NCBI GenBank assembly: GCA_945957605.1
Contig: CAMFLR010000001.1
Coordinates: forward strand, 744,001-808,000
Origin: an uncultured Isosphaeraceae bacterium
Lineage (GTDB): Bacteria > Planctomycetota > Planctomycetia > Isosphaerales > Isosphaeraceae
Reading direction: 5' to 3'
Length of the DNA stretch: 64,000 nt
The notes under the pieces: model-generated
Told to the model about the DNA's origin: nothing
Database searches by the model: none
The model's input: the letters and a program-made list of their open reading frames with translations, nothing else
Shown here: positions 4,648-16,896 of the stretch, in pieces
How the letters are laid out: the number at the start of each line of letters is the position of its first letter
Position numbering within the stretch: the stretch's first letter is position 1
Translations under genes and position numbers: made by a program

Positions 4648-5109
4648 GTGCGCAAAGTACAAATGGTCACGGATCGGGAACTCGAGATCCTCAAGGTTCT
4701 GTGGGCGCGCGGCAAAGCCAGCGTCCGCGAGGTTCAGGAAGACCTCAACAAAACGGCCGGCCCGGTCGCTTACAGCACGGTGCAAACCCTGCTGAATATC
4801 ATGGAAGAGAAGAAGGGCCTCGTACGGCATGTGGTTGAAGGGCGCACCTTCATCTACGTTCCCAAGAAGTCTTCGGATCGGACAATCAAGGAATTGACGA
4901 CGCGATTTGTCGACCGCGTGTTTGATGGCGCGATCGAGCGTATGATGGTCGCGTTGATCGACTCCAAAGCCCCGAGCGCCGAGGAATTCGATCGCCTGCG
5001 TGCGATGATCGACGAGGCTCAACGACAAAGCGAGCAGCCTGGCGATGCCGATGAGGCTGCAGCCGTTGTCGAGATCGCGGCCGACGAGCCGTCGGTTGAT
5101 TTTTCGTAA
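4648..5109 (+). CDS. BlaI/MecI/CopY family transcriptional repressor (pair 1)
   Basis: Winged-helix repressor of 153 residues, of the family that dimerises on an operator and is cleaved when a membrane M56 protease is activated. LTDRELEILKVLW-type opening (VTDRELEILKVLWARGKASVREVQ) and the AYSTVQTLLNIMEEKKGLV recognition-helix region are typical of BlaI. The C-terminal third (DRTIKELTTRFVDRVFDGAIERM) is the dimerisation domain. The start is a GTG; the ATG five codons in (4663) is an alternative. The next gene is an M56 protease 46 bases downstream, so the two form a BlaI/BlaR1-like unit. No beta-lactamase is nearby, so the regulated target is unlikely to be penicillin resistance; autoregulation is probable. 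Confidence 0.9.
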   Translation: MRKVQMVTDRELEILKVLWARGKASVREVQEDLNKTAGPVAYSTVQTLLNIMEEKKGLVRHVVEGRTFIYVPKKSSDRTIKELTTRFVDRVFDGAIERMMVALIDSKAPSAEEFDRLRAMIDEAQRQSEQPGDADEAAAVVEIAADEPSVDFS

Positions 5110-5155
5110 ATCGTTCTGATCGCTAAACTTCCACTCGTATCCCTGGACGCCGGCC

Positions 5156-6574
5156 ATGGGCGAGATCGTCTCGACCCTTGGCGGGCGAATCGTTGACTCT
5201 GGCCTGTCGGCGTGCTTGATCACGTTCGCCGTTGCCCTGGCCATGGTTGCGACTCGCCAGCCTTCCCGACGCCGGGCGCTGGCGCGCGCGGGCGTCCTCG
5301 GTGCGCTTCTGGCGATTCCGATCGTCTGCTTGCGCCCATTTGAGCCATTCCAGTTGCTCAACATGGGCTGGGCTGGCGTTCGGCCGGCGCTTATGTGGAT
5401 TGGTGACCGGCTCGGCACCGGCGATCCCACACGGTGGCTTCGCACCCTTGCGCCGGCGTCGCGCGGCATCGCCTATTTGCCAGCAATTCTGCTGGGCCTT
5501 TACCTCGCAGGCGTGCTATTTGGGCTGGCCCGGTTCGCCCTTGGCTGGTGGGGAGCGGGCTGGATTCAGATCAACAGCGCAGCCGCATCTTCTTTTGCGG
5601 TTGAGCTTTACAAGTCGTTGCCGTACACGGCGAATCGAACGCGTCCGCGGCTAAGAGTTTCGACACGTACGCGCCGGCCGGTGTTACTAGGTACGTTTAA
5701 CGAGACGATTCTGATCCCGCCCGACATGGATCGGCCTGAGGCGGCCACTGCGTTACGGTTGACGTTGCTGCACGAACTGGCGCATGCCGAAGCTTCAGAC
5801 CCATGGTTCGGCCTTGCGAGCGAACTCGCGTCAATTTTCTGGTTTCCTTTGCCGCCGCTCTGGTGGATTCAGCGGCAGATGAGGCTCGACCAGGAGTATC
5901 TGGCCGATCGCCAGGCCGCTGAAGGCTTTGGGGCGCCGAGCCGTTATGCCGCGTCGCTTGTTGACATCGCGGCGGGCACGAGTGCGAAGGGGGCGGGTGA
6001 AAACAGAGACTCCGGGAAAAGTCAGGCGACCTCAGCGTTATTCCCGCGCGTTCTGATGTTGATTCGCGCTCCATTCGTGCTCGAAGGGCAACCGCCAGCC
6101 TGGTGGCGACTGGCGCTCGCGGGCACAACCGTCGTTCTGCTAATCACCGCCACCGCCATCACACTCCGCTTCACTCGGGCCGCTCTCCCGCCCGCTCCGG
6201 AGCTACGCACGTTTTCAATGCCTTCTCTCATCATCGACGACTCACCGATGTCGGTGTCAGAAATTGTTTTGCCCGTGAAACTTCCGCCCGACTTCTCGTT
6301 GACGCTTTCGGTCCACGCGACTCATTCTGAACTCTCGCAACTTTCGATTCTAGGCGTTCCGCTCGCTCCCGCTTTGATTTTGGATACCAACCTGGTGCCT
6401 GAGGAACGCGTCTGGCAAAAGGTGAAGCTCGATCGCAAAGGCGGCCGTGTCACGCTCGCCGTCAATCAAGGAAAGCCCGCCGAGCACCCCGCCGACTGCC
6501 ACGCCAATGCATTGTCTGTACGGTCGAGTACAGGCCGGCGTATGACGTTTCGGACGATCCAATTGACCTGGTGA
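5156..6574 (+). CDS. M56 family (BlaR1-like) membrane zinc metallopeptidase with a C-terminal extracytoplasmic domain (pair 1)
   Basis: Integral-membrane protease of 472 residues, expected to relay an envelope signal by cleaving its partner repressor. Several hydrophobic segments lie in the first 140 residues, followed by the zinc motif HELAH (206-210) and the downstream Glu in LDQEYLADRQA (about 246). A further membrane span (about 318-337, ALAGTTVVLLITATAITL) is followed by roughly 130 residues outside the membrane. That tail (FSMPSLIIDDSP... to ...MTFRTIQLTW) is not a penicillin-binding sensor: no SxxK/SxN/KTG set is present. Its ending resembles the beta-sandwich of planctomycete DUF1080/LamG-like domains, which suggests sugar or wall binding, but this is tentative. 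Encoded just downstream of its BlaI-type partner. Confidence 0.85.
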   Translation: MGEIVSTLGGRIVDSGLSACLITFAVALAMVATRQPSRRRALARAGVLGALLAIPIVCLRPFEPFQLLNMGWAGVRPALMWIGDRLGTGDPTRWLRTLAPASRGIAYLPAILLGLYLAGVLFGLARFALGWWGAGWIQINSAAASSFAVELYKSLPYTANRTRPRLRVSTRTRRPVLLGTFNETILIPPDMDRPEAATALRLTLLHELAHAEASDPWFGLASELASIFWFPLPPLWWIQRQMRLDQEYLADRQAAEGFGAPSRYAASLVDIAAGTSAKGAGENRDSGKSQATSALFPRVLMLIRAPFVLEGQPPAWWRLALAGTTVVLLITATAITLRFTRAALPPAPELRTFSMPSLIIDDSPMSVSEIVLPVKLPPDFSLTLSVHATHSELSQLSILGVPLAPALILDTNLVPEERVWQKVKLDRKGGRVTLAVNQGKPAEHPADCHANALSVRSSTGRRMTFRTIQLTW

Positions 6575-14452: not shown

Positions 14453-14474
14453 ATCTACGGGTTTTCCCGTTGAC
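14453..14474. promoter_or_regulatory. Upstream, degenerate copy of the BlaI-type operator
   Basis: ATCTACGG, a 6-base spacer, then CCGTTGAC. The left half-site is identical to that of the next dyad; the right half-site matches it in the first four bases. It abuts the second dyad with no gap, giving two 22-bp sites in a row. Confidence 0.6.
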
Positions 14475-14497
14475 ATCTACGGCAAAACCCGTAGATT
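14470..14497 (+). promoter_or_regulatory. Sigma-70-type promoter overlapped by the operator
   Basis: TTGACA at 14470-14475 and TAGATT at 14492-14497 with a 16-base spacer, about 50 bases upstream of the BlaI-type start codon. Repressor bound to the 14475-14496 dyad would cover the spacer and most of the -10. Confidence 0.6.
14475..14496. promoter_or_regulatory. Perfect 22-bp dyad, likely operator of BlaI-type repressor 2
   Basis: ATCTACGG and CCGTAGAT are perfect reverse complements around the 6-base spacer CAAAAC. It lies 50 bases upstream of the repressor gene and inside its predicted promoter, as expected for an autoregulated BlaI/M56 unit. The half-site CTAC/GTAG is similar in kind to the TACA/TGTA core of known BlaI/MecI operators. 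Confidence 0.75.
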
Positions 14498-14548: not shown

Positions 14549-15004
14549 ATGGGACGTCCTCGCGCGGAGCAGCCGACGCCCGCCGAGCTTGAGGTGCTGA
14601 AGATCCTTTGGGATCGCGGTACCCCTGCCACGGTGCGCGACGTGCTCGAACTGATCAACGCGCAACATGAATCACCGCGCGCTTACACGTCGGTGATGAG
14701 CCTCATGAACGTGATGGCGGAGAAGGGACTGCTCGACCGCACGCCGCAAGGACGCGCGTTCGTGTATGTGCCGGCGACGCCTCGCGACCAGACGTTACGC
14801 TCGCTTCTGGGCGAGACGTTGGAACGTGCTTACGAGGGGTCGGCGAGCCTGCTGGTTGCTCACCTGCTCGACCGCTCGAAACCAACCACCGATGAGCTCG
14901 AGCAAATCCGGGCGTTGCTCGACGCGTATGAAACGGGCCAAGCGGAGGAGTCGGACAAAAACCAAGGAGGAGCACCATGTCCCCCGAAACGTTCTCGCAA
15001 ATAA
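14549..15004 (+). CDS. BlaI/MecI/CopY family transcriptional repressor (pair 2)
   Basis: 151-residue winged-helix repressor. PTPAELEVLKILWDRGTPATVRDV is the diagnostic N-terminal helix pair, and RAYTSVMSLMNVMAEKGLLDR the recognition region. The C-terminal part (RSLLGETLERAYEGSASLLVAHLL) is the dimerisation domain with the usual cleavage zone. Its last 28 bases overlap the M56 gene, so synthesis of the two is coupled. Two abutting dyads cover its promoter, which implies autoregulation of the whole unit. The tail beyond residue 130 (GGAPCPPKRSRK) is encoded by the ribosome site of the next gene. Confidence 0.93.
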   Translation: MGRPRAEQPTPAELEVLKILWDRGTPATVRDVLELINAQHESPRAYTSVMSLMNVMAEKGLLDRTPQGRAFVYVPATPRDQTLRSLLGETLERAYEGSASLLVAHLLDRSKPTTDELEQIRALLDAYETGQAEESDKNQGGAPCPPKRSRK

Positions 15005-16896
15005 GTTCGGGGCTCTGGCTCGGACTGTTACATGCAGGATGGATCAGCCTGGCTGCGGCGGCTGGCGCGAGCTTGCTATTGCGGGCATGCCCCAACTTGT
15101 CGAGCACATGGCGACGTCAAATTCTTGTTTTTGCGATAGTTGCCGTGTTGCTTGGCCCGCCGGCACTTGTCGCGCTTCAACGAAGCGACTACTTCCGCAA
15201 TGACTCCGCGCAAACGAATCAGGTGTCTGTCGACAGCGACGTTCAAGATCGCGATTTGCCGGCCGAAATTGGGAAACCGGCGGACGCCGTGCATGTTGCT
15301 GTCGTACCCGCGTCGCCTGTGGCGTGGATGTCGCGCTTGCGAAACGGTGCGGTAGAAATCATCTGGCAATCCAAGCGACTCGGACTGATCGTCTGGCTGG
15401 GTTGCGTCTGTTTTGGAGCAGCGACACTTGCACTTGGACAGCTAGGCGTACAATGGTTGCTTCGAAATTCGATTCCCGCGAACGCGGAAATCGTCCATCG
15501 TGCGGACCTAATCGCAGGCTCGATGCGCTTGCGCAAGACACCGAAAATACGGCTCCACGCGACGGTCGAACAACCATGTCTTTGTGGTGTCTTTCAACCG
15601 TTTATCGTGCTGCCGGAAACATGGGCTGTGAGCGCGAGTGAAGAAACTCTGAACGCCGTTTTGGCACACGAACTCGCGCACGCGAAACGTCGAGACCTCG
15701 TTTGGAATCTTGCTGACCGGCTGGTGGTATCGCTCATTTACTTCCATCCGGCGCTTCGGCAAATCACTTCGAACCTGCGGCGCGAACGTGAGATCGCCGC
15801 TGACAGTCTCGCGGTTCATTCGACGGGTAACCGGCTCGCCCTGGCGCGAGCAATCGAGTCACTTGCACGGAATACGGTCCAACGCAGATTACTGGCACCG
15901 ATGACGATCGGCATGGCGTCGTCGGGAGATGATCCCGCACTCCTTTCTCGAATTCAGGAGATCCTTGGCATGAAGCCTTCTCGTCCTCGATTTCCGAAAT
16001 GGACAGTTGCAGCACTTAGCATTGCGGCGGTTATCGCGAATCTCACCGTGGCCGTCGGCTGGGCTCAAGACGATTCGCCCGCAGCCGCGCAACCGGCTTC
16101 GGAGCCGCCTCAAGGACTGAAGATCAATGCGGAAGGAGTAATGTCGTTAGTGAATTGGCTGACGGCCGACGGTCGCGACGTTCCCGATCCCAAAACGGGT
16201 TTGTCGTACGTCGGAGTCGGCTCGGTGAGGGTAAAGCAGCCAGAGCCGATCGCAGCGAGACCAGCGCCTCGGGTCGCAATTCGCACGTTTCCCGGCGAAG
16301 ACAAGCAAATCGCATTTGAAGTGCGGTTCGTGGAAATCGAGCCCGACACCTGGCGCGATGCCGCGAAAGGACATTTGAGGCCGCTCCCTTTCGAAGGAGG
16401 CGTAGGCCGCTGGATGATCGACAGTGAAGCATCCGTCAAAGAACTGATGAAGATGACGCAGGCACAGCCGACTTCGCTGGTCACGCAAGCTCCCAAGGTG
16501 ACGACCTTCCAGGCGCAGCAGGCGGTGATCTCTATCGGTGCGATGGAAGCCGACATGAAGACGCTCAAAAATGGCGCACGCCTTGAACTCGAGGGGACGT
16601 ACACCAAGAACGGAACGAAGTTGAACTTCGGCCTGCACGAGATTCTCGAAGCGGCGCCCGACGCTAACAACAAGCCGACCGAGCGCATCGAAACGCGTCT
16701 GACACAAATCATCGAACTGCCCGAAGGTTCGACCCTACTGCTGAGCTTGGGGCGGCGGACCGAAACGCTGAAGCGAGGACGTGTGACCCGCGAGCGCTTG
16801 GTCTTCGTAACGCCGCGACGCATCATTTTGGAAGATGAAGCACCGCCGAAGCTGCGACTGAATTTCGTGCCGATTCCCGCCACGGCTCAGCGCTGA
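14977..16896 (+). CDS. M56 family (BlaR1-like) metallopeptidase fused to a secretin-like C-terminal domain (pair 2)
   Basis: 639 residues. Four membrane spans in the first 160 residues (e.g. LIVWLGCVCFGAATLALGQL) surround a cytosolic zinc protease with HELAH at 231-235 and a downstream Glu in REREIAADSLAVHSTGN. After another span near 345-365 (WTVAALSIAAVIANLTVAVGWA) come about 270 extracytoplasmic residues. These end with the pattern of a secretin C-domain: IAFEVRFVEIEP near 445, APKVTTFQAQQAVISIG near 510, IIELPEGSTLLLSLGRR near 575 and RLVFVTPRRIILED near 605. No penicilloyl-serine sensor motifs are seen. AAGGAGGAG fixes the ATG at 14977. The tail may sense or bind an outer-membrane or wall component; that is inference. 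Confidence 0.85.
   Translation: MSPETFSQISSGLWLGLLHAGWISLAAAAGASLLLRACPNLSSTWRRQILVFAIVAVLLGPPALVALQRSDYFRNDSAQTNQVSVDSDVQDRDLPAEIGKPADAVHVAVVPASPVAWMSRLRNGAVEIIWQSKRLGLIVWLGCVCFGAATLALGQLGVQWLLRNSIPANAEIVHRADLIAGSMRLRKTPKIRLHATVEQPCLCGVFQPFIVLPETWAVSASEETLNAVLAHELAHAKRRDLVWNLADRLVVSLIYFHPALRQITSNLRREREIAADSLAVHSTGNRLALARAIESLARNTVQRRLLAPMTIGMASSGDDPALLSRIQEILGMKPSRPRFPKWTVAALSIAAVIANLTVAVGWAQDDSPAAAQPASEPPQGLKINAEGVMSLVNWLTADGRDVPDPKTGLSYVGVGSVRVKQPEPIAARPAPRVAIRTFPGEDKQIAFEVRFVEIEPDTWRDAAKGHLRPLPFEGGVGRWMIDSEASVKELMKMTQAQPTSLVTQAPKVTTFQAQQAVISIGAMEADMKTLKNGARLELEGTYTKNGTKLNFGLHEILEAAPDANNKPTERIETRLTQIIELPEGSTLLLSLGRRTETLKRGRVTRERLVFVTPRRIILEDEAPPKLRLNFVPIPATAQR

Follow-up and report, generated by a model that had tools for sequence, protein, structure and literature searches.

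Work on BlaR1-type proteases has centred on antibiotic sensing, and work on secretins on their role as pores. BlaR1 and MecR1 act with BlaI and MecI as a beta-lactam sensor-protease and its repressor, for which structures 8exp and 8exs are available, and the roles of the catalytic residues of BlaR1 (H201EXXH, D210, and E242XXXD) have been described (PMC9834060). In solved secretins, a gate loop of approximately 30 residues between pivot glycines forms the central gate (PMC8563730, PMC10550240), and a conserved membrane-contacting helical loop (AHL) has also been described (PMC6532946). Secretins that are mislocalised are met by the Psp response, with PspB and PspC (PMC5596341).

Here we examined a 64,000-nucleotide stretch of DNA from an uncultured Isosphaeraceae bacterium (the window), in which a first-pass annotation had described a BlaR1-like M56 protease whose external part is a secretin-like domain, in an ORF with the same coordinates as found here (Table 1). 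The start of this M56 gene overlaps the 3' end of a blaI-type gene by 28 bases. Residues 138-282 of the encoded protein were matched by Pfam Peptidase_M56 (E 3.9e-21; 75.9 bits versus a curated cut-off of 31), and Staphylococcus aureus BlaR1 in the PDB matched residues 135-284 without a gap (E 2.6e-7), with H231, E232, H235, D240, E272, and D276 aligned to BlaR1 H201, E202, H205, D210, E242, and D246, respectively. Hydropathy revealed four hydrophobic segments, near residues 17-35, 49-67, 135-153, and 343-361, and the HEXXH...EXXXD zinc site is found in the loop before the last helix. Since the protease loop lies between the third and fourth segments, the tail would be located across the membrane from it, as in BlaR1, and it takes the slot of the BlaR1 sensor. 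No penicillin-binding (transpeptidase-like) sensor domain was matched by Pfam in the tail up to E 10, and the NCBIfam blaR1_generic model gave 54 bits, below its cut-off of 400.

Table 1. Features of the blaI-M56 locus, in window coordinates.
Feature	Coordinates	Strand	Basis
Candidate double-palindrome operator CTACGGGTTTTCCCGTTGACATCTACGGCAAAACCCGTAG	14455..14494	+	Exact match to shared pattern
Promoter-like TTGACA (14470-14475), 16-base spacer, TAGATT (14492-14497)	14470..14497	+	Read from sequence
blaI-type repressor gene, 151 aa	14549..15004	+	Pfam Penicillinase_R, E 1.4e-26
M56 sensor-protease with secretin-derived tail, 639 aa	14977..16896	+	ORF; Peptidase_M56; BlaR1 PDB match
Zinc site HELAH (231-235), D240, E272, D276	15667..15804	+	Gap-free BlaR1 alignment
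Last membrane helix (~residues 343-361), then VGWA/QDD (putative cut at the slash)	16003..16065	+	Hydropathy; signal-peptidase-site-like
Trimmed secretin homology domain, residues 444-620	16306..16836	+	PDB profile; AlphaFold2, Foldseek, VIA-align; own-secretin profile
Shortened gate position, 11 residues between G521 and G533	16537..16575	+	Alignment with the genome's own long secretin

All four motifs on which the first-pass annotation had based its secretin assignment were present in the tail, in the order known from secretins: EVRFVEI starting at residue 448, QAPKVTTF at 504-511, LPEGSTLLLSLG at 581-592, and LVFVTPRRII at 608-617. Searched alone, the tail matched no Pfam family, and relatives were therefore gathered for a profile, which was built from the tails of 17 relatives with no secretin included. 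The top 15 matches of this profile in the PDB were all secretin chains, 14 of them at E below 0.01, and included BfpB (6.9e-8, the best), GspD (6.3e-5), PilQ (0.0044), and MxiD (0.0057). Over the phylum, the same profile found ordinary secretins, including a long secretin of the window's own genome (G000:C19; E 1.7e-16). Of the true secretins, this protein of 1,510 residues (L168:4165-8697, minus strand) is the nearest to the tail. Among the 17 tails, four matched Pfam Secretin singly (best 8.3e-8), and a single protein, the orthologue L088, scored above the Pfam cut-off for M56 as well as that for Secretin.

Structure prediction gave the same answer. An AlphaFold2 model of the tail had a mean pLDDT of 71.8, with most core blocks at 75-92, and each of its ten Foldseek matches at E <= 1e-3 was a secretin. 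Secretins likewise filled the top 27 rows from VIA-align, where Z ranged from 9.5 to 6.8 and rmsd was 3.8-9.6 across 123-146 residues; they ranked above a designed beta protein (Z 6.4) and small barrels (Z 4.5 or lower). The full-length model, in which the strand order of the tail is repeated, was of low confidence (mean pLDDT 56) and was not used as evidence. Profile and predicted fold thus confirm residues ~444-620 as a real but trimmed secretin homology domain, whose relationship to secretins is well beyond chance. No unrelated domain appeared in either the profile or the fold searches, and the earlier call of a secretin C-domain external to a BlaR1-like protease was borne out. We are nearly certain of the overall architecture, that is, blaI followed by an M56 protease with a secretin-derived tail.

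A survey of other planctomycetes for the same fusion had also been proposed in the first-pass annotation. A single-protein scan of the genome collection gave no match; a search of the collection with a narrow tail alignment gave five loci. Fusions were found in Singulisphaera acidiphila DSM 18658, Singulisphaera sp. GP187 (two copies), and two Planctomycetales MAGs. Over the 198 related genomes searched, we found 13 M56-tail fusions, one of them cut by a contig end, in 12 genomes. Twelve blaI-protease-secretin operons were complete, and no conserved third gene accompanied the operons. All of the fusions, as well as the stand-alone tail proteins described below, were in one family, which, judging from Singulisphaera, we take to be the Isosphaeraceae. 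Twelve fusions formed a single clade in the M56 tree (100/99). Leu was found in all 12 at the position that we match to BlaR1 Tyr261, a residue near-strictly conserved in BlaR1, with Tyr in the other M56 proteins compared (L107 being ambiguous). The protease of the fusions may thus be altered.

The region upstream of blaI contains CTACGGGTTTTCCCGTTGACATCTACGGCAAAACCCGTAG, two tandem palindromes overlying a predicted TTGACA-16-TAGATT promoter, and this promoter-in-operator layout was likewise found in the orthologues. A search pattern derived from six operons was present upstream of blaI in six further inspectable complete fusion operons with 0 to 3 mismatches, bringing the total to 12 of 12 in a single planctomycete family; the window's own copy is an exact match, for which shuffles gave an expectation of 0. 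When up to three mismatches were allowed across 43 genomes, the pattern was found at nine fusion operons and one other place, and the reversed control gave 0 matches. The tenth place, in a genome of another family (G048), was again upstream of a blaI-M56 pair, such that across the 43 genomes the operator was found only before blaI-M56 operons. Within the window's own genome, no second operator was found, and a half-operator search at one mismatch gave, beyond the two halves here, only scattered chance-like sites. From the sequence, BlaI presumably binds the double palindrome, and autoregulation of the operon by BlaI and this operator is likely. The window has a second blaI-M56 pair (4648-6574, plus strand), which has a short tail matching no known family and is without the double-palindrome operator.

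The M56 protein of the G048 operon (L187:1517-3382) was placed as the sister of the fusion clade (99/98), and it has the Tyr. Its tail consists of a coil and then REGDRPRPEGA repeats, and its operator is as in the fusion operons. As the sister operon keeps the operator but has another tail, the secretin piece probably took the place of a different tail in a switch that was already there. The blaI-operator-M56 unit therefore probably predates the secretin tail, the core having been acquired within the Isosphaeraceae line. Other M56 proteins of the window's genome have carboxypeptidase-regulatory, thioredoxin-like, or DUF1559 tails, or unassigned ones; free exchange of M56 tails is seen both here and in the sister operon.

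A second M56-secretin fusion, L132, was above both Pfam cut-offs, had a weak Secretin_N match, and recurs in other genomes of a different planctomycete family. It is placed elsewhere in the M56 tree than the clade of 12 fusions, indicating that M56 proteins recruited a secretin at least twice. The L132 protein (L132:2382-5741, minus strand) has ~1,100 residues, with one Pfam Secretin match and a second secretin-like stretch near the C-terminus, and is encoded behind a blaI gene; fusions of this type were also seen in L136, L175, and L176, and in part in L181 and L184.

The trimmed core also exists as a stand-alone protein, apparently secreted and specific to the fusion family (L008, L011, L012, L014, L015, L017-L020, L022, L023, L026-L028, L030, and L031), with one in the window's genome (G000:C1:389752-390327; L167). 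Most of these proteins start with a signal-peptide-like stretch. In the tail tree, fused and stand-alone tails grouped against all secretins (100/99), in a topology compatible with either form having come first. Stand-alone forms adjoin thymidylate synthase-like genes in three genomes, and in two of these also dihydrofolate reductase-like genes; nothing in the surroundings of the stand-alone genes hinted at a function.

Our best reading, to which we give about an even chance, is that of a two-gene BlaI/M56 switch that regulates itself and uses a domesticated secretin core as its external receptor. BlaI dimers would bind the palindromes and hold the operon off, until a periplasmic event, most simply a protein contact through beta edges, is felt by the secretin core and relayed through the last helix to the zinc site in the cytosol. 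By analogy with BlaR1 (PMC9834060), this site would then cut BlaI and release the operon. With no second operator found in the genome, the immediate output would be more repressor and sensor, and further output would need other substrates or weaker operator sites. Against such a switch, self-only control gives no obvious benefit, and the Leu at the Tyr261 position also counts against it. Because no other external part is folded, the secretin core is the best candidate for the receptor, and we lean toward the tail acting as one. Since the beta edges pair subunits in secretins, a protein partner would be the simplest ligand. That the ligand is itself a secretin or its subunits is doubtful. More doubtful still is a scheme in which the core would bind periplasmic subunits of the long G000:C19 secretin, either unassembled or misplaced, and so bring about proteolysis of the repressor; if true, this would be a planctomycete counterpart of the Psp secretin response on a BlaR1 chassis.

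Among the alternatives to the switch, the one that survives best, though we think it unlikely, is that the core serves as an anchor rather than a sensor, docking the protease on a true secretin ring or assembling with itself, so that proteolysis would be placed at a secretion site with no signal carried. The core does retain the strands that pair between subunits in secretins, and there are three true secretins in this genome. However, none of the operons is linked to a secretin or secretion gene, and the strict linkage of blaI and operator points to signalling. The nearest true secretin, the long one found by the tail profile, sits among sulfate-assimilation genes, not secretion genes. With that location, and with no conserved neighbour besides blaI, we also dropped the idea of the tail as part of a secretion gene cluster.

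The tail changes faster than the protease, with dN/dS in close pairs of about 0.5-0.8 versus 0.2-0.4. Such change suits a receptor under changing demands, but it also fits partial decay, and the core could be a passenger, the decaying remnant of a fusion with no role of its own. The trimmed loops and the loss of a Pfam match by the window's tail are in keeping with decay. This explanation is nonetheless improbable, in that the core is in frame in all fusions of the 12-genome clade with a net dN/dS below 1, and W-R, QAP, TPR, and other positions are conserved. Moreover, a stand-alone secreted form is also maintained, and the same recruitment arose twice.

A G-x-A-[QKDE] sequence similar to that of the window protein follows the fourth membrane helix (TM4) in nearly all orthologues, and from its sequence the site may be cut by signal peptidase. 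Such a cut after the last helix could release the core as a soluble periplasmic protein like the stand-alone relatives, whose existence as a secreted family favors the idea, and BlaR1 is shed at the equivalent place (PMC9834060). Shedding of BlaR1 is, however, turnover and not its main function, and in this genome most M56 proteins, regardless of their tail, have a signal-peptidase-like site after TM4; release as the purpose of the domain is thus quite improbable. These sites, of the type A-x-A or G-x-A, were seen right after the last helix in L100-L108, L110, and the window protein (~16060), and shedding of the external domain may be general.

In an alignment with the long G000:C19 secretin, the tail retains the strands around QAPKVTTF, LPEGSTLLLSLG, and VTPRRIILE, the last followed by acidic residues. 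The N-terminal half of the window protein is M56, and no Pfam match to the N-terminal ring domains (N0/N1/N3, STN, or Secretin_N) was obtained in the protein up to E 10. The alignment also revealed no counterpart in the tail of the GVPLLSKTPWINRLF stretch of the own secretin, nor any motif of the VPLL...LF or VPxL...LF type. We take GVPLLSKTPWINRLF, which is VPLL...LF-type, to be the AHL of that secretin. A working outer-membrane channel, which the same predicted fold over residues 444-620 might suggest, has next to no chance of being correct and was rejected on these missing parts, as a chain without N-domains, most of the gate loop, or the membrane-contact motif is very unlikely to form a pore and is here tethered to the inner membrane by TM4.

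We found no open-access paper that brings together BlaR1, secretins, and M56, and the co-mentions of BlaR1 and secretin were incidental by title and counts; wider queries of this literature brought up nothing closer. As the first-pass annotation had supposed, we found no earlier description of an M56-secretin fusion in the open-access literature searched. On at least two independent occasions, the sensor slot of an M56 protease has received a secretin core, and in one of the lineages all complete operons examined have an operator of their own. The cut-down core in place of the penicillin sensor suggests that the secretin fold was reused as the receptor of a self-regulated gene switch. It can now be tested what M56 proteases sense beyond antibiotics and whether a secretin fold can be a receptor, and the conserved operator is a ready reporter for finding the signal.

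The locus resembles the BlaR1/BlaI system in its M56 gluzincin, whose catalytic residues agree in identity and spacing, in its four membrane helices, of which the third and fourth flank the protease loop and the fourth precedes the sensor position, and in the adjoining BlaI-type repressor gene with palindromic sites at the promoter. It differs in having a secretin-derived tail instead of the penicillin-binding sensor, Leu where BlaR1 has Tyr261, an operon without a resistance gene, and an operator sequence that differs from the TACANNTGTA type known from the related CopY. With the secretins of PF00263 (GspD, PilQ, InvG, pIV, and the genome's own G000:C19), the tail shares a homologous domain, motif order, and predicted fold, and with G000:C19 in particular QAPKVTTF and the IILE-acidic end. 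Unlike these secretins, the tail is without N-domains and VPLL...LF, has a gate loop of 11 versus about 30 residues, and is fused to a protease and held by an inner-membrane helix. The Psp system is an earlier example of an inner-membrane regulator for which physical contact with secretin subunits serves as a stress signal (PMC5596341). It has no domains in common with the present locus, in which the secretin fold is part of the regulator, whose action would be proteolysis of a repressor.
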